A stretch of 35,799 nucleotides of DNA from an uncultured bacterium (lineage in GTDB: Bacteria > Cyanobacteriota > Vampirovibrionia > Gastranaerophilales > JAILCC01). Positions 7,133 to 18,210 of this stretch are shown here, one piece after another. How positions within the stretch are numbered: the stretch's first letter is position 1; each line of letters starts with the position of its first letter. The notes beneath the pieces were generated by a model. The model saw only the letters and a list, made by a program, of their open reading frames with translations, made no database searches and had not been told where the DNA came from. The stretch lies in NCBI GenBank assembly GCA_949283935.1, contig CASDUJ010000040.1:1-35799 (forward strand). Direction: 5' to 3'. The position numbers were made by a program, and so were the translations under genes.

Positions 7133-7915
7133 TTAGATATTTATAATATTTTGGTAGCTTGTAAAGTAATCATTAATTACATTTAAAAGCATTGGAAGAA
7201 CAAATATTAGAATTAAAGCACCTAATCCTGGTTTAAACAAAAAACTTAATTGAAAAACATTTACTTGAGGGGCGGTTCGAGAAATTATTCCTAAAATAAT
7301 ATCTTGTCCAAGAGAAGCAATTAAAATAGGTGCAGCAATTTGTAATCCTACGTAAAGTACATTAGCAGTTATTGCAATTAAATATTCTGGAGATGCTAAA
7401 AGATTCATGTCAAATGAAGTAATAAAGACTCCGCAAAGTTCAAAAGATTTTTCCATTGCACGAATTAACCAATACAAACCACCGATATTAATGTAAATAA
7501 CTGCAGCTAAGAGGTTAAAAAATGCTGATAGTAAAGAACCTTGGGTTCTAGTACTTTGGTCAAACATAACGGCAGAAGATAAACCCATTTGCATATTAAT
7601 CATGTCTCCACCTGCAGCTATAGCAGAAAAAATGGCAGAAGAAACAAAGCCCAAAAATGCTCCAACAATTGCATTAATAAAAATTCCAATAATAAAAGGA
7701 AAATTTTGCGGCATAGTTCCAGTATCAATTATATTTAAGAAAATTATAGTCATAACCAAAGCAAAACTAAGTCTTATGGTTACATTAATTTCAGACCTCC
7801 CTAAAACAGGTGCAAATTTAGCGAAAGCTAAAAATCGAGCAAAAATCATTAAACCTGCTGATAAACCTGCATCAAATTGCGGAAAATATTTAAAAACAGC
7901 AAGAAATTGTTCCAT
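7133..7915 (-). CDS. fliR: Flagellar/type III export apparatus protein FliR
   Basis: FliR (SctT in injectisomes) is an inner-membrane part of the export gate. The 260-residue protein is hydrophobic with multiple membrane helices and shows FliR features: an N-terminal FARFLAFAKFAPVLG stretch, GGDMINMQMGLSSAVMFDQ in the middle, and a C-terminal half with LIASLGQDIILGIISRTAPQ and FQLSFLFKPGLG. Its ATG overlaps the preceding gene by 1 nt. It is the last gene of this operon in view; flhB and flhA, which commonly follow fliR, are not here because a convergent gene ends 1 nt away. Confidence 0.93.
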   Translation of the reverse strand: MEQFLAVFKYFPQFDAGLSAGLMIFARFLAFAKFAPVLGRSEINVTIRLSFALVMTIIFLNIIDTGTMPQNFPFIIGIFINAIVGAFLGFVSSAIFSAIAAGGDMINMQMGLSSAVMFDQSTRTQGSLLSAFFNLLAAVIYINIGGLYWLIRAMEKSFELCGVFITSFDMNLLASPEYLIAITANVLYVGLQIAAPILIASLGQDIILGIISRTAPQVNVFQLSFLFKPGLGALILIFVLPMLLNVINDYFTSYQNIINI

Positions 7916-8280
7916 TAGCTTCCCCCAAAAATGTCAACTTGTAGATTTTCTATAGGCGGATAATCTATTTCAATTAATTCTTTTGAACTTGTAGTTCCTT
8001 TAAGAAGTTTGTAGTTGTATAAATTGTTGTTTGTTTTTATCTGTAATATGCTTGTATTTGGTGATTTTAAAGCTAAAATGATTTGTTTTTTGTCATCAAA
8101 AATTGTATGCATAATTTGAACATCTGTTGCTTGATTATCAAAATGAATGTTTTGTATTTCTTCATCAAAATTTAAAAGATAAACTTTTCCCTCAACAAGC
8201 TCAAGATCTTTTGCTTGTACGCAAATAATGCCAAACAAAAAAATAAAAATAAAACTTAAAATAATATTTTTGAAAAACAT
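7915..8280 (-). CDS. Small secreted protein resembling the secretin/CpaC N-terminal (T2SS-T3SS pil_N) domain
   Basis: A 121-residue protein with a Sec signal peptide (basic start, hydrophobic core to about residue 20, likely cleavage near VQAK). The mature part, ELVEGKVYLLNFDEEIQNI followed by a beta-rich segment ending in SPNTSILQIKTNN, resembles the small N-terminal domain of CpaC/RcpA-type pilus secretins (an initial 'G-K' strand, a variable middle, then 'GtTnl' strands). No secretin channel domain follows, so this would be a free periplasmic domain. It overlaps fliQ and fliR by 1 nt on each side, so it is translated with the export gate. It is not a standard gene of flagellar operons. The family assignment is from pattern only. 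Confidence 0.6.
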   Translation of the reverse strand: MFFKNIILSFIFIFLFGIICVQAKDLELVEGKVYLLNFDEEIQNIHFDNQATDVQIMHTIFDDKKQIILALKSPNTSILQIKTNNNLYNYKLLKGTTSSKELIEIDYPPIENLQVDIFGGS

Positions 8281-8762
8281 TATTTTCTATTCTCCATAAT
8301 TTGCTTTGTTTCCATTAAATTTGGACGAGATTGACTATCAGGGAATGTTCTTTGTAAGTGTGGTTTTTGTTGAAATTCGCTATAAGGAGCTTTTCCTGGA
8401 TTTTTCATAAATTTATCTATGTCAGAAGTTTCTCCTGACTTATAATATTTTCCATCTGTTCCTAATGTAACATCAGATGGAAGCACAAAATCTCCTTGTT
8501 TAGTTATTACATTAAAAGCCAAATTGCCAGATTCCATAAGTAAATCAGTTAATTTCTTAGTAAAAAATCCACCTAAAATCATAATCATTAGAAAAACAAA
8601 AAGAATTTTTGGAGCAGCAACAATAGTTTGTTCTTGAACAGAAGTGACAGCTTGCAAAATTCCAATGATAAGACCTATCGCTGCAGCTGTTAATACTAGA
8701 GGCATAGTTATAAGCAACATAACAATAAAACCGTTTGCTAAATGTTCCATCATCAATTCCAT
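8280..8762 (-). CDS. fliQ: Export apparatus protein FliQ with a long C-terminal extension
   Basis: FliQ (SctS) packs around FliP and FliR in the export gate. Residues about 1-88 are a normal FliQ: two membrane helices with LTAAAIGLIIGILQAVTSVQEQT and a second helix with KILFVFLMIMILGGFF. FliQ is usually about 90 residues; this one is 160. The extra 70 or so residues are polar, rich in Gly, Pro, Lys and Gln, with no membrane segment. The reading frame is intact and the stop overlaps the next start, so the extension looks real and not a frameshift. Confidence 0.88.
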   Translation of the reverse strand: MELMMEHLANGFIVMLLITMPLVLTAAAIGLIIGILQAVTSVQEQTIVAAPKILFVFLMIMILGGFFTKKLTDLLMESGNLAFNVITKQGDFVLPSDVTLGTDGKYYKSGETSDIDKFMKNPGKAPYSEFQQKPHLQRTFPDSQSRPNLMETKQIMENRK

Positions 8763-8780: not shown

Positions 8781-9422
8781 TTAATTAAAGCTTTGGATCA
8801 AGCCACTAACTACCATTCCCCAGCCATCTACTGCAATAAATATAAGTAATTTAAAAGGCAAAGAAATAATTGTAGGAGAAAGCATCATCATCCCTAGCGC
8901 CAACAAAATATTAGCTACAACAAGGTCTAATATGACGAAAGGAACAAATATGATAAAACCAATTTCAAAAGCTTTTTTCAATTCTCCAATCATATAAGCA
9001 GGTGCAACATCAAAAATACTTATATCTGCAGGAGTAGCTGGTTGAGGTCTTTTGGCAAGTTCTAAAAAGAAAGCTAAATCTTTTTGTTCAGTTTGTTTCA
9101 TCATAAATTCTTTCAAAGGTTCTGAACCTTCTTTCATGGCAAGAATGATGTCACCTGTTTTTTGATATGGAATATGTCCTGTTTCATACATTTTTGAAAA
9201 TACAGGAGACATTGTGTAAAGAGTCATAACTATTGAAAGCCCTATAATAATTATGCCTGGAGGAACTTGTTGTGTTCCTAAAGCAGTTTTTAAAATTGAA
9301 AATACTATTATAAATCGCATAAAACTTGTTAAACAAGCAAAAGCAAACGGCAAAAGTGAAAAAACACTCATTACTATTAGCATTTGAATAATTGGATTTA
9401 AATCTTTTATCATTGCTTCCAT
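8781..9422 (-). CDS. fliP: Flagellar/type III export apparatus protein FliP
   Basis: FliP (SctR) forms the pentameric core of the export gate. Motifs include LTSFMRFIIVFSILKTALGTQQVPPG, FIPFVILDLVVA-like FIIFVPFVILDLVVANILLALGMMMLSP and a C-terminal FKLLIFIAVDGW. The 213-residue protein starts directly at the first membrane segment and lacks the cleaved signal peptide seen in many flagellar FliP proteins, which makes it more like injectisome SctR. GGAG lies near the ATG. It sits 11 nt after fliO and 18 nt before fliQ. (Quoted stretches are parts of the conserved regions.). Confidence 0.94.
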   Translation of the reverse strand: MEAMIKDLNPIIQMLIVMSVFSLLPFAFACLTSFMRFIIVFSILKTALGTQQVPPGIIIIGLSIVMTLYTMSPVFSKMYETGHIPYQKTGDIILAMKEGSEPLKEFMMKQTEQKDLAFFLELAKRPQPATPADISIFDVAPAYMIGELKKAFEIGFIIFVPFVILDLVVANILLALGMMMLSPTIISLPFKLLIFIAVDGWGMVVSGLIQSFN

Positions 9423-9433
9423 TTATTTACTCC

Positions 9434-9820
9434 TTAGTTATTATTAAGTTTTTCCAGCATAGACTGAATTACGCTGGTTTTTTTAGATGTAAGGGATTTT
9501 TGTTTGGCAGGTTTTTCTTCTAAAAGTTCGCTAAATTCTTCTTTAATTTCCTCCGTTATTTCTCCTTGGTCATTAAGTTTTGCAAGAAGAGTTGTTGAAC
9601 TAGCATCAGAAGCTATTAAAAATCTTTCGTTAAAAGCTTTTATTATATGTAAAGTTTTTCTTTGAGATATTTGAAGAGTTTCTTCAATTTCTAAATTCCC
9701 TGTTCTTTTTCTGAATGACATAGTTCCTGCCAAGCAATGTTTGGCAATTACGTACGCCACCAACATAAATCCTATTACTCCCGCTGTGTAAAACACAAAT
9801 TTTATTAAATAATGAGTCAC
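9434..9820 (-). CDS. fliO: FliO-like flagellar export accessory protein
   Basis: FliO helps FliP assemble in flagellar systems and is generally absent from injectisomes. The 128-residue protein has one membrane helix (about 8-30) followed by a basic stretch and a small beta-rich domain (EIEETLQISQRKTLHIIKAF, then RFLIASDASSTTLLAKL), the usual FliO pattern, then a charged Glu/Lys tail. Its place immediately before fliP agrees. FliO is poorly conserved, so position and topology carry much of the weight. It is 3 nt from the preceding SpoA-domain gene. Confidence 0.82.
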   Translation of the reverse strand: MTHYLIKFVFYTAGVIGFMLVAYVIAKHCLAGTMSFRKRTGNLEIEETLQISQRKTLHIIKAFNERFLIASDASSTTLLAKLNDQGEITEEIKEEFSELLEEKPAKQKSLTSKKTSVIQSMLEKLNNN

Positions 9821-9823
9821 TTT

Positions 9824-10948
9824 TTACTCCTCAATTTCAAAATCATTTACATCAAAATCATCATTTTCGTTTGAATTGTCAGGAATTTCATTTTCTTCTT
9901 TTTCTATTGGTTCAGCTTGCGAAAAAATTTCAGTAATTTTTACACCATATTTATATCCAATAATGACAAGTTCTCCTTTTGCAACATTTTTATTTTCTAC
10001 TTCTAATACAACTTCGTTTCCATAAACAGAATCAAGTTCTACAACTACTCCTTCTGCCATTTCTCTAAGTTCTCCGAGGCTCATTTTTACTTGAGGAAAT
10101 TTTGCGCAAACATCAACTTGCACATTATCCCATATATCTTTTGTACTCACCTCTATATCCTCCTTTTGTATTTGTGTATCATTTTCTTCTTCTTTTATAA
10201 ATAATCTTGGGTCAGGGTTTACTTTAAATTCAAATTCTGTAGGTTTTGTTATTGCCATTTTTTTTATGTTGCTTTTTTCTAACAAAACTATATCTTCGGG
10301 TTCTATGTTATTTATTTCTTCCAAAGAAAGTTTAGTTTTTCCCACAAAAATATCTACAGGTGTTTGTGCTTTTTTAAATTTAGTTGTATCAATTTTACCT
10401 TCAATAAAAGGTAGTTCAGGATATTTTATCAATTTTTCAGGAATACTTAAAAAAAGTTTTCCCATTTCGTAAATGCTATTGTCTTCGAAAAGAATAAATC
10501 CTAAATTTAAATAATTTTCAATAACTTCTTCTTTATCAATTAATTTTTTAATTTCTTTGGGGGTAAGTAAATAAGATTTTATTGCTGAAAAAAGTATATT
10601 GTTAAATTTACTAATAATATTAGCTTCTAGTTCAGTAAGTTGAGAAAAATCAAAAAAATTTTCGTTGTTACTTCCTAAAGTTTCTGTTAAAAAAGCTTCG
10701 CAAGCTGTATCAGAAAGTCTTAAAGTTAATGTAATTGTTTGAATTTGAGCTTGAGTAACAAAATAATTATTTCCGGAAAAAAAAATTTTTGAATTCTTTT
10801 CCAAAGAAAAAAGTCTAATTTGCGGAGAAATTTTCCAAAAATCATTACAGGTATTTTTTATAATTGAAGAAAATTCATTATCCAGCCAAGAAAAATATTG
10901 CTTCAAGTCTTTGACAGAAGTGTTTATTTTAGTCATCATTTGAGACAT
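9824..10948 (-). CDS. FliM/FliN-type switch or SctQ-like protein with two SpoA domains
   Basis: A 374-residue cytoplasmic protein. The longest frame begins at a TTG at 10984, but the ATG at 10948 has GGGAG 7 nt upstream and is preferred. The N-terminal two thirds resemble no motif I can name. Two SpoA (FliN-type) domains follow: one around TPVDIFVGKTKLSLEEINNI and one around KFPQVKMSLGELREMAEG through ELVIIGYKYGVKITEI. The C-terminus is a highly acidic tail. A single chain with two SpoA domains is the layout of injectisome SctQ (HrcQ/YscQ); flagella normally use separate FliM and FliN. It likely forms the cytoplasmic ring or sorting platform under the export gate encoded by the next genes. 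Confidence 0.8.
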   Translation of the reverse strand: MSQMMTKINTSVKDLKQYFSWLDNEFSSIIKNTCNDFWKISPQIRLFSLEKNSKIFFSGNNYFVTQAQIQTITLTLRLSDTACEAFLTETLGSNNENFFDFSQLTELEANIISKFNNILFSAIKSYLLTPKEIKKLIDKEEVIENYLNLGFILFEDNSIYEMGKLFLSIPEKLIKYPELPFIEGKIDTTKFKKAQTPVDIFVGKTKLSLEEINNIEPEDIVLLEKSNIKKMAITKPTEFEFKVNPDPRLFIKEEENDTQIQKEDIEVSTKDIWDNVQVDVCAKFPQVKMSLGELREMAEGVVVELDSVYGNEVVLEVENKNVAKGELVIIGYKYGVKITEIFSQAEPIEKEENEIPDNSNENDDFDVNDFEIEE

Positions 10949-10994
10949 TTTTTTCTCCCTGCATACTTGTATACTCTTCCCCAATTATCCATAT

Positions 10995-14927: not shown

Positions 14928-16493
14928 TTATTTTAATTTTGTCAACAATTTTATTACTAGTTGTTTAGCTATGGAAAGTTTAAATAAGAGTGTTAAAGCA
15001 AAATAACTTAACCCGCCTATTACAAATAAAATGGAAAGTTTAAAGAATAAAAACAACCAACTAGTTTCAGGGTGCACAACAATAAAAATTTGATTTAATC
15101 CAATACATATACCTAAAGATATTAACGCAGCCAGCAACATTTTACCAATAGGTTTTAGAAAACCTGTGTAATTTAAATAAATTTTTTTGTTACGAATTAA
15201 CATTCCCAATAATATTGCATTAAATAAAGTAACTAAAGTAGTAGAAAGCATAATACCGCCTATACCTAAAGTTTTCACAAAAATTATATTCATTAAAATT
15301 TTGATTAATACAGAACAAATAGCAACAACAAAAGGTGTTTTAGAATCATCAAAAGCATAAAATATTCTGGTAATAGTATCCCTCGCCATATAAGGAATTA
15401 AAGACAAAGTAATGAAAAACAAAGCTTCAGAAACCATTAAAGTAGCGTTAATATCAAAATTACCACGTTGAAACAAGATAGTTACAATATCTTGAGTGAA
15501 AGTTAATATAAATATAGTTAAGAAAAATGCTAAAAAGAACAAAGAATTTAATCCTTCGTGGAAATATTTTCTTAGAGAATAGAAATCTTTTTCCCCAACA
15601 AATTTTGAAAACATAGGAAATAAAGGAACAAGCATAGCAGTAATAAGTATTCCTGCAGGGAACTGAAAAACTCTATTTGCATAAGCTATAGCAGTCCAGG
15701 CTCCTTCTTGTAATGAAGATGTGAAAAACATATCAATGTAAATATTAATTTGTCCTATAGTTGTACCGAGTATTGCAGGGAATAAAATTTCCCCTATTTT
15801 TTTCAAGCCTTCTGAATTGAAATCAAATACAGGGAAATATTTAAAACCTGCTTTGAAAAAAACAGGCAATTGAAAAATGAATTGACCTAAAGAGCCTCCA
15901 AGTGTAGCCCAGACAAGTACATATCCAGAATTATCAGGAGGAATAATAAGTAAACTTATAATGACAACTATACTTAATATTGCAGGGCTTAAGGAAGTGA
16001 AAAAAAATTCTTTATAGACATTGGAAATACCATAAAAGATTCCAATAATACCTCCAATAAATATTATAGGACTCATTATTTTTAAATGATTTGCTGCGAG
16101 AGTTTTTAGTTCAATACTTCCATTTGCTGCAATTATGTCGATAATTTGGGGGGCAAATAACCAAAATATCAAAGATAAAATTGCAAAAAATAATCCAGTT
16201 AAAGTAACAAAAGAATTAAATATTTTAATTACTTTTTCTGAAGGTTTAGAATTAATATTGGGAATTAATTTAGAAAAAACTGCTACAGTAGCAGTATGGA
16301 AAGGCCCTCCTAATCCTCCTAAAAGTATTATTGCAAGTGCTGGAAATTGACTTGCATAAAAATATGCATCGCTAACTAAAGTTGCTCCATATGATTTTGC
16401 AATCATTACATCTCTAAAAAATCCGGCAAATTTACTTAAAATAGTAACTAAAGCTATCATAATACTTACTTTTAATAGACTATTTTTGGTCAT
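14928..16493 (-). CDS. murJ: Lipid II flippase MurJ (MviN family)
   Basis: Moves the peptidoglycan precursor lipid II across the inner membrane. With the chosen start the protein is 521 residues with about 14 membrane helices. The N-terminal LSKFAGFFRDVMIAKSYGA and the following ASQFPALAIILLGG region are typical of MurJ, including the conserved Arg in the first helix. A longer frame starts at 16511, but the ATG at 16493 has GGAG 10 nt upstream and reduces the overlap with the SpoIID-like gene to 14 nt. The gene overlap with another wall enzyme suggests joint expression. Confidence 0.95.
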   Translation of the reverse strand: MTKNSLLKVSIMIALVTILSKFAGFFRDVMIAKSYGATLVSDAYFYASQFPALAIILLGGLGGPFHTATVAVFSKLIPNINSKPSEKVIKIFNSFVTLTGLFFAILSLIFWLFAPQIIDIIAANGSIELKTLAANHLKIMSPIIFIGGIIGIFYGISNVYKEFFFTSLSPAILSIVVIISLLIIPPDNSGYVLVWATLGGSLGQFIFQLPVFFKAGFKYFPVFDFNSEGLKKIGEILFPAILGTTIGQINIYIDMFFTSSLQEGAWTAIAYANRVFQFPAGILITAMLVPLFPMFSKFVGEKDFYSLRKYFHEGLNSLFFLAFFLTIFILTFTQDIVTILFQRGNFDINATLMVSEALFFITLSLIPYMARDTITRIFYAFDDSKTPFVVAICSVLIKILMNIIFVKTLGIGGIMLSTTLVTLFNAILLGMLIRNKKIYLNYTGFLKPIGKMLLAALISLGICIGLNQIFIVVHPETSWLFLFFKLSILFVIGGLSYFALTLLFKLSIAKQLVIKLLTKLK

Positions 16494-18210
16494 GGCCGAA
16501 AAGCTCCACATAAAATTTTACATTATGATTAGAAAAATCTAACATGTTTGTCTCATAATTTACAAGTTCTACTTTATTTATACCTTTTTTCATCCATTTT
16601 TTTAATTCGATTTGTCCGTATTTTTTATCAAAATTTTGAGAAGAAATTAGCACAACAGAATCATTGATTTTAAAAGTTAAATCGTGAGGTTTTGCGGAAT
16701 ATTCTATTATTAAATAAGCTTTTGCTGTAGGTGAATAAAATGTAGATTGGCAATTTTTAAATTCTTTAAAATTACACTCAACAGGATAAGATCCAATAGA
16801 TATTCCATTATAATAATGTTTTAAAATTTTATCATACGAAAATCCTTTTTTGTCCATACCGGCAGCTCCATATTGACTGAGACCTACACCATGTCCATAC
16901 CCGCCTCCTGTAACTTTAAAGCCACTTAAAATATTTTGGTCAAAAATTTTTGTGAATACAATGTTAGCGCTTGGCAGCCATTTATTGTTGTATTCAAAAA
17001 TTTTTCTAATCATTATTTCTTTGGCAATTAAAAAAACTCCTTTATCCGTTGTAATCCTTACATACATTGCTTTTCCACTTACGCCTCTTTTGGGTATGTC
17101 AATATTTTGAATTTTTCCAAAGTCTTCGCGATTTTTCAAAGATGGTTTAACAAATTCATTGTTAGAAAATTTTATAAGATTTTTAGCCAAAATATCTTCA
17201 AGTTCTTCTATTTTCCAAATATATTCCCAACGATAACGTGGAGAATTTATATCATACGATTCCGGTTTTGTTTCGTAAAAACGTCTTGCATTATCTTCTT
17301 TAGATAAATCTTCGCCATAATCAAAATCTGCTGTTCCTTTTAAATACGGAATAGGTTCTGAGGGGAATTTTGTTTTTATCCCATTTTGCGAAAAAACATT
17401 TTCGTAATTTTCTGTATGCCCTCCGGCTGTGGAAGAATATAAAGACAAAATAATGTTACCTTTATAAAGTGCAAATTGTCCCATTGTTTCGTTTACTGCT
17501 TTATTAGCAATAGTATCGTAACTGTTGTAACCATTGTATACTTGTGAACCTGTTGTGTCACAAACATCATAATCAGTATTTTTGAGGCTAGTGTCTCTAT
17601 AAGCATATCCTCTGGCTGATATAGCTTGTGCCTTTAAAGCTTCGAGTCCAAAATATATAGGCATTTCATTTGGAACTACTCCTTTAATGTAATCTTCAAT
17701 GTCTATAATATTTATAATTTTCATTTTGTTTGTTTTAGCAGAAGATATTTCAATTTTGCCTAAATATTTTGCAGATGCTCCAATTTTTTTGATATTTTCT
17801 ATTTCAATAGGAGCTGATTTTGTTGAAACAATTAAATCTTCATTTACAAGAACTTTTTTTATAATTCCTTGAAATTTAACTAAAAAATAATCTCCATCTT
17901 TTGTTATTGTAATTGGAGTTGTAGAATTAGCAACAAGTTGATTAGAGCTTGTTATAAAAATTTCTTCTGTAGAAGTTAGAATAATTTCTTTTTGTTCAAA
18001 AGATCCTTTGTTTGAAATTAAAACTCTTATCGTTTTGTTTTGAAAATCTTGGCTATTGTTATTTTTTACATTAGAAGAAGTTTTCGAAAAAATATTTTCA
18101 TTTAAAGGAATTTTAAATGGTTCAATTTCTTGAGAAAAAACTAAATTTTCGCAAGAAATTATTAACATAAAAACAAATAAAATTGATAAAGTTTTTAATA
18201 ATTTACACAA
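16480..18210 (-). CDS. SpoIID/LytB-domain protein, probable exported peptidoglycan glycan-strand enzyme
   Basis: SpoIID-family proteins are lytic transglycosylases that act on glycan strands lacking peptides. This 576-residue protein has a signal sequence ending in LIISC (Cys20), a plausible lipobox. The SpoIID core shows VVPNEMP (178-184, with the Glu at the position of the catalytic Glu), ARGYAYRD, GGHTENYE (263-270) and GYGHGVGLSQYGA (437-449). The start is a TTG at 18210 overlapping secG by 8 nt; it is preferred because a later ATG would destroy the signal peptide. About 100 C-terminal residues form an extra beta-rich part. Outside spore formers the family occurs widely, including in Cyanobacteria, so sporulation is not implied. 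Confidence 0.88.
   Translation of the reverse strand: MCKLLKTLSILFVFMLIISCENLVFSQEIEPFKIPLNENIFSKTSSNVKNNNSQDFQNKTIRVLISNKGSFEQKEIILTSTEEIFITSSNQLVANSTTPITITKDGDYFLVKFQGIIKKVLVNEDLIVSTKSAPIEIENIKKIGASAKYLGKIEISSAKTNKMKIINIIDIEDYIKGVVPNEMPIYFGLEALKAQAISARGYAYRDTSLKNTDYDVCDTTGSQVYNGYNSYDTIANKAVNETMGQFALYKGNIILSLYSSTAGGHTENYENVFSQNGIKTKFPSEPIPYLKGTADFDYGEDLSKEDNARRFYETKPESYDINSPRYRWEYIWKIEELEDILAKNLIKFSNNEFVKPSLKNREDFGKIQNIDIPKRGVSGKAMYVRITTDKGVFLIAKEIMIRKIFEYNNKWLPSANIVFTKIFDQNILSGFKVTGGGYGHGVGLSQYGAAGMDKKGFSYDKILKHYYNGISIGSYPVECNFKEFKNCQSTFYSPTAKAYLIIEYSAKPHDLTFKINDSVVLISSQNFDKKYGQIELKKWMKKGINKVELVNYETNMLDFSNHNVKFYVELFGHDQK

Follow-up and report, generated by a model that had tools for sequence, protein, structure and literature searches.

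A small secreted protein with a predicted pil_N/VirB9-like fold in the gate operon of a second flagellum-type export system of Gastranaerophilales

In an uncultured bacterium of the order Gastranaerophilales, the export gate genes fliQ and fliR are separated by a short gene for a protein with a signal peptide, here called X. Which machine does this operon serve, and what might a secreted protein be doing inside it? The DNA analysed is a stretch of 35,799 nucleotides (the window) from the genome here numbered G000. The suffix 2 marks the genes of a second flagellum-type export set (system 2), and the suffix 1 those of the canonical flagellum.

A secreted protein between fliQ and fliR

The gene order is fliN-O-P-Q-X-R, beside cdsA, frr and pyrH, with the fliN-like gene, fliO, fliP and fliQ upstream of X and fliR downstream. 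The features of the operon are:

7133 to 7915, minus strand: fliR2, export gate (Pfam FliR, PF01311, 5.9e-48)
7915 to 8280, minus strand: X, 121 residues, ATG start, predicted free pil_N/VirB9-NTD-like β-sandwich, between fliQ2 and fliR2
7918 to 7998, minus strand: C-terminal tail of X, low confidence, with a conserved [IL]DxPP motif (alignment)
7999 to 8211, minus strand: β-sandwich domain of X, approximately residues 24–94, seven strands (AlphaFold and Foldseek)
8212 to 8280, minus strand: signal peptide of X, approximately residues 1–23, cleavage site judged by eye
8280 to 8762, minus strand: fliQ2 (Pfam FliQ, PF01313, 7.2e-18), with a C-terminal extension of about 85 residues (8283–8537)
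8781 to 9422, minus strand: fliP2 (Pfam FliP, PF00813, 2.3e-67)
9434 to 9820, minus strand: fliO2 (Pfam FliO, PF04347, 1.4e-7)
9824 to 10984, minus strand: fliN2, a 386-residue FliN/SctQ-like protein (FliMN_C, PF01052, two stretches, 1.9e-21)

X overlaps fliR (7133–7915) by one nucleotide and fliQ (8280–8762) by one nucleotide, and the sequence TAATG is found at both junctions (fliQ-X and X-fliR), so that translation of X is probably coupled to that of fliQ2 and fliR2. The ORF coordinates and junctions confirm the original prediction of a signal-peptide protein in this position with overlaps of 1 nt. X begins with a Sec-type signal peptide (MFFKNIILSFIFIFLFGIICVQA, followed after the cleavage site by KD), with no lipobox as judged by eye, and the N-terminus is strongly hydrophobic in all 64 of the X proteins of named relatives. 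X is a predicted secreted periplasmic protein. Its last 11 residues have a pLDDT of 57–59 in the AlphaFold model. A motif scan of the other system-2 proteins of the window genome produced no convincing partner for the [IL]DxPP motif.

The neighbouring proteins have features of their own. FliQ2 is 157–183 residues long in 81 loci of the order, as against approximately 90 for the canonical FliQ of the same group; a GKxP[YF] motif is found within its extension (8283–8537) in 55 of these 81 loci, and the extension is present also in orders without X. The FliR2 product falls short of the FliR equivalog cut-off, with 138 bits as compared with 168.6. FliN2 combines its two FliMN_C stretches in a single polypeptide, like the SctQ of injectisomes, in place of a separate FliM and FliN, and residues 203–352 match the SctQ model below its cut-off. 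Elsewhere in the window is an envelope gene pair, in which the gene for a SpoIID-domain protein (16480–18210) adjoins and overlaps that for the lipid II flippase MurJ (14928–16511).

An ORF of similar size is found in the same slot in relatives, X lying between fliQ and fliR in 79 of the 102 distinct loci (that is, those with distinct FliR2 sequences in the order), as the original prediction implied. In the other 23 loci fliQ and fliR are nearly adjacent, with no X in the slot. The dN/dS of X is 0.04–0.22 in the 16 close pairs where it was computable, and its strand pattern and signal peptide are conserved across the order. X is a conserved gene under purifying selection. It evolves faster than FliR: dN/dS for FliR2 is lower, at 0.01–0.07, and between species of family f1 the identity is around 50% for X and 83% for FliR.

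Eight changes between presence and absence of X are needed on the FliR2 tree, at least 6 of them forced by well-supported branches. Since X is present in all rows of the outer families, the pattern would fit an ancestral X that was then lost repeatedly (at least 6 times), possibly with some regain. In the loci examined of other Vampirovibrionia orders (f9, f10, f12, f14, f15), the gate is of the same type, X is missing from the slot, and fliQ lies next to fliR. X is an accessory, given its absence from this position in the other orders examined and its loss on at least 6 occasions. The machine is kept without X in 23 of 102 loci, and the repeated loss shows that the gate can do without it. A search for free copies elsewhere in the X-less genomes found none, using a single-sequence search that is weak for divergent X.

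Several candidates were rejected. The proteins of 837–838 residues in L016–L019 and L023 match X weakly and are taken as chance matches, L016 reading by eye as a PglZ/BREX-type protein, and L020, L024 and L025 are chance frames. A group of divergent slot proteins, typified by L110 (L110:9607–9987), joins the X family at 96.7% in a profile comparison, and counts as a subfamily of X on the basis of its slot and this comparison. Conservation within it is unusually high (69–94% identity to L110), and two of its cysteines, C46 and C123, are invariant and may form a disulfide. Foldseek on this type gave weaker, mixed Ig-fold matches, with the F-type T4SS outer ring 7oko at rank 4. It may be added that two records titled Clostridia and Brachyspira (L080, L088) carry Gastranaerophilales gate genes, and these titles are probably misassigned.

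The predicted fold of X

X was originally proposed to resemble the small N-domain of pilus secretins. Searches of Pfam and NCBIfam gave no match for the window's own X. Among 44 orthologues, 26 match PF13629 (T2SS-T3SS_pil_N) at E ≤ 1, and this is the only family matched by more than a few of them. Against the gathering cut-off of 23 bits, the scores are 23.4 for L096, 20.3 for L107 and 18.7 for L026. Weak matches to CagX (VirB9) and TraK_N occur in single orthologues.

An AlphaFold model was built from the 44-row alignment. It is a β-sandwich, with a mean pLDDT of 84 and a pTM of 0.69. When the model was compared with the PDB using Foldseek, ranks 1–3 were the N-terminal domain of TrwF/VirB9 (E = 2e-3, TM 0.50, 2.3 Å over 80 columns), rank 7 was Xanthomonas VirB9 and rank 12 a chain of the F-plasmid outer-membrane core; generic Ig folds rank close to these, all E-values being above 0.001 and the TM score only 0.50. 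Against viral models, only generic Ig-like matches were obtained. With hhalign, residues 31–100 of X align to the pil_N region of the CpaC-type secretins of relatives, two pairs reaching 88.4% and 25.6%, as compared with 0.2% for FlhB as an unrelated control.

The profile and structural matches agree with each other, because the N-domain of the Tad secretin CpaC has itself been described as a VirB9-like β-sandwich (PMC13170226). It is thus largely supported, on moderate evidence, that the predicted fold of X is most like a free-standing pil_N or VirB9 N-terminal β-sandwich. Both the pil_N profile and the structural comparison gave fold matches (the latter moderate, at E = 2e-3 and TM 0.50), and the secretin N-domain resemblance holds for the orthologue L096, which is over the Pfam cut-off, and in Foldseek and hhalign; it does not extend to a Pfam match for the X of the window.

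A second flagellum-type export machine

Incomplete flagellar gene sets in the order have been described by earlier authors (PMC4040986, PMC3787301). In Di Rienzi et al., fliP, fliQ and fliR of ACD20 are genes 0006, 0007 and 0009 of one contig; the numbering leaves one gene between fliQ and fliR, which, judged from its position, is probably X. A literature search, with most subscription journals beyond its reach, located no publication about type III systems of Gastranaerophilales, nor one treating these genes as a separate machine.

Judged by its gene complement, the gate operon with X is part of a second, separate, flagellar-type, non-motile export machine. The parts of system 2 are FliE2, FliF2 (MS ring), FliH2, FlhA2, FlhB2, FliN2, FliO2, FliP2, FliQ2, FliR2 and four rod-type proteins (two FlgF/G-like, FlgB2 and FlgC2). 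In the window genome they are split between the window operon, flhB2 on contig C23, and a cluster on C11 that contains the two FlgF/G-like proteins, FlgB2, FlgC2, an SLT lytic transglycosylase, FliE2, FliF2, an unrecognised protein, FliH2 and FlhA2. This cluster and the canonical fliP1-Q1-R1-flhB1-flhA1 operon are convergently oriented, and canonical FlgB1-FlgC1-FliE1-FliF1-FliG1-FliH1-FliI1 are on contig C27. The same genome thus holds an independent and complete canonical flagellar set, on contigs other than that of the window, and the flagellar-operon setting first assumed for X is not supported.

In other genomes FliI2 adjoins FlhA2 (G009, G086, G005), and the four rod-type genes form an operon of their own in the flagellin-free G004 and G018. 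No filament was detected as system 2's own. The place between FliF2 and FliH2, in which one would look for FliG or SctK, is taken by a conserved protein (L136:16770–17714) that matches no Pfam, NCBIfam or PDB profile; hhalign gives it 2.7% as FliG, and this identity is not supported. Many genomes also encode an extra protein of around 490–510 residues whose match to FlhA is confined to the C-terminal, cytoplasmic half (for example L142:7888–9369).

By the profile matches, system 2 is conserved across the order, and most of the genomes that carry it lack flagellin and the P ring. FliR is found in 96 of 97 genomes, FlhB likewise in 96 of 97, and FliF in 59 of 60. FlhA falls into two types by E-value, approximately 1e-258 to 1e-268 in 31 genomes and approximately 1e-200 to 1e-222 in 92 of 97, the latter count being a manual tally of the full-length matches listed. 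This second type is missing from G008, G017, G023, G044 and G095, three of which are less complete drafts. Flagellin is found in 34 of 97 genomes, and FlgI, the protein of the P ring, in 29 of 95. The FlgC2-type rod protein is found in 92 of 95 (E around 1e-46 or better; again a manual tally of listed matches), including nearly all of the flagellin-free genomes.

A tree of FlhA was constructed from 42 rows, including 23 of the second type (from families f1–f5, f7, f9–f12, f14 and f15 as sampled), 13 flagellar and three SctV. System-2 FlhA forms one clade with 100/100 support, apart from both flagellar FlhA and injectisome SctV. The flagellar-type rows group with FlhA of E. coli, Thermomicrobium and Azospirillum, and the three SctV stand apart; because of long branches, the deeper branching is not certain. 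With 690 bits, FlhA2 stays under the FlhA equivalog cut-off (772), which FlhA1 passes, and under the one for SctV as well. FlhA2 identity is approximately 74–80% across most of the order and 64–68% in families f9 and f15; FlhA2 is absent from the listed f8 and f13 genomes. The clade, the scores against the cut-offs and the identity across the order together speak for system 2 being an old, vertically inherited and selected machine, rather than a decaying flagellum.

The role of X and comparison with known systems

On the basis of these observations we lean towards X being an accessory periplasmic subunit of this order-wide non-motile export machine, acting as a ring-forming or bridging adaptor at the gate and rod. 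X would be exported by Sec and fold in the periplasm, surrounding the exit of the gate and the proximal rod, next to the extended tail of FliQ2. In the gate structure of PMC7064499 the membrane domain of FlhB has its two ends in the cytoplasm, the C-terminus of FliR lies in the periplasm, and the hairpin of FliQ points in the opposite sense to a hairpin of FlhB; by this orientation, the long tail of FliQ2 should be periplasmic. There X could form an adaptor or collar in the manner of CpaI, a small free periplasmic protein like the Tad secretin N-domain, which has been modelled as a bridge between inner and outer membranes (PMC13170226). It is this modelled precedent for a free domain of the same fold that makes us favour a collar or bridge, and it is a close precedent for the periplasmic scaffold suggested originally. 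X may thus connect gate and rod with the peptidoglycan, or with some component of the outer membrane. It would tune or stabilise the machine rather than being essential for export, since the gate has remained intact through its repeated losses. The analysis turned up neither an interaction partner of X nor an outer-membrane component.

Two other partners had been suggested. The P ring is rejected, because X is kept in genomes without FlgI and flagellin, for example G004, G018, G038 and G056. An outer-membrane channel may be a partner, but no secretin is linked to system 2. Membership of X in a linked secretin system was rejected in the same way, as no gene linkage was seen.

The alternatives differ in what they make of the neighbouring genes and of the fold. 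All the neighbours of X are flagellar-family proteins, and with incomplete flagellar sets described in the order (PMC4040986, PMC3787301) the operon might be a part or decaying remnant of a flagellum, with X as an accessory of its basal body, situated for instance by the P ring. We consider this improbable, given the complete separate canonical set in G000, the separate and strongly supported clade of system-2 FlhA, the dN/dS of 0.01–0.07 for FliR2, and the persistence of system 2 and X without flagellin or FlgI. Docking of system 2 to a type IV pilus or Tad-like secretin, which would lend it an outer-membrane exit through X as adaptor, is equally doubtful: secretins are present in all 60 genomes searched and the predicted fold of X is that of a CpaC N-domain, but the only secretin of G000 sits with pilB- and pilC-like genes, X is absent from many genomes that also have a secretin, and no co-localisation of X and secretin genes was seen.

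A less doubtful possibility, though still an unlikely one, is that X is not structural, and serves as a periplasmic assembly factor or chaperone (FlgA-like or chaperone-like) for rod subunits or for the gate. It is small, fast-evolving, Sec-exported, coupled to the gate genes and dispensable in evolution, all of which would suit such a role. However, its fold matches are ring-forming periplasmic domains of secretins and T4SS, no match to FlgA was found in the Pfam search of orthologues or with Foldseek, and in G009 the rod genes are present without X. The repeated clean losses of X could also be those of a passenger gene with no function at the gate, held in place by translational coupling; this we regard as very improbable, because dN/dS is 0.04–0.22 in the 16 pairs and the signal peptide and strand pattern are conserved across the order.

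An adaptor at the gate and rod continues to be the reading we favour for X. A wider proposal is that system 2 represents a type III machine of a class of its own, an export organelle, ancient and non-motile, with a flagellar gate, MS ring and short rod, inherited vertically in much of Vampirovibrionia and mistaken for incomplete flagella; X would have been gained in Gastranaerophilales as a CpaI/VirB9-NTD-like bridge, giving a new route to the surface for secretion in animal guts. We offer this tentatively, as a possibility that falls somewhat short of being probable. The setting is of more interest than the fold, X being a lineage-specific addition to an order-wide non-motile basal body.

The flagellar genes of non-motile gut Gastranaerophilales had been taken for remnants of a flagellum, and the evidence here is that most carry a conserved and selected export machine. 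Its genes place this exporter beside or instead of a flagellum in gut relatives of the cyanobacteria. This makes the substrate and role of system 2 a question that can be put to the test in a gut lineage that is common but has been little studied. A CORE/nanotube export complex would be marked by a need for FliPQR-FlhBA in nanotubes, a non-flagellar role. System 2 would be a further case, besides injectisomes, of the flagellar export core being reused, here with a domain of pilus or conjugation type.

The closest likeness of X in fold type and sequence pattern is to the N-domain of the Tad secretins (CpaC/RcpA, PF13629), as seen from L096 over the cut-off and from hhalign. It differs from these secretins in being a free domain of 121 residues in an export-gate operon, with no PF00263 match and no barrel. 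With CpaI it shares the character of a small free periplasmic protein resembling the Tad secretin N-domain (PMC13170226), but X is outside any tad/cpa locus, in the order fliN-O-P-Q-X-R beside cdsA-frr-pyrH, and has no linked secretin partner. The N-domains of VirB9/TrwF and TraK, from the outer-membrane core of T4SS, are the best structural matches of the AlphaFold model; unlike VirB9, X is a single domain, without the C-terminal OMCC domain and without any T4SS context.

System 2 as a whole resembles the flagellar basal body in having FliE, FliF, FliH, FliN to FliR, FlhA, FlhB and rod-type proteins. It differs from a motile flagellum in being kept without flagellin or P ring, in having its own FlhA clade, and in the protein between FliF2 and FliH2, which is not recognisable as FliG. 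It is also like the NF-T3SS, including the secretin-less Myxococcales type (PMC9380563), as a flagellum-related exporter without motility and with no linked secretin, and in FliN2, whose two SpoA stretches resemble SctQ. Set against the injectisome NF-T3SS, however, FlhA2 lies outside the SctV clade, and system 2 keeps FliO and rod proteins of FlgB/C/F/G type.
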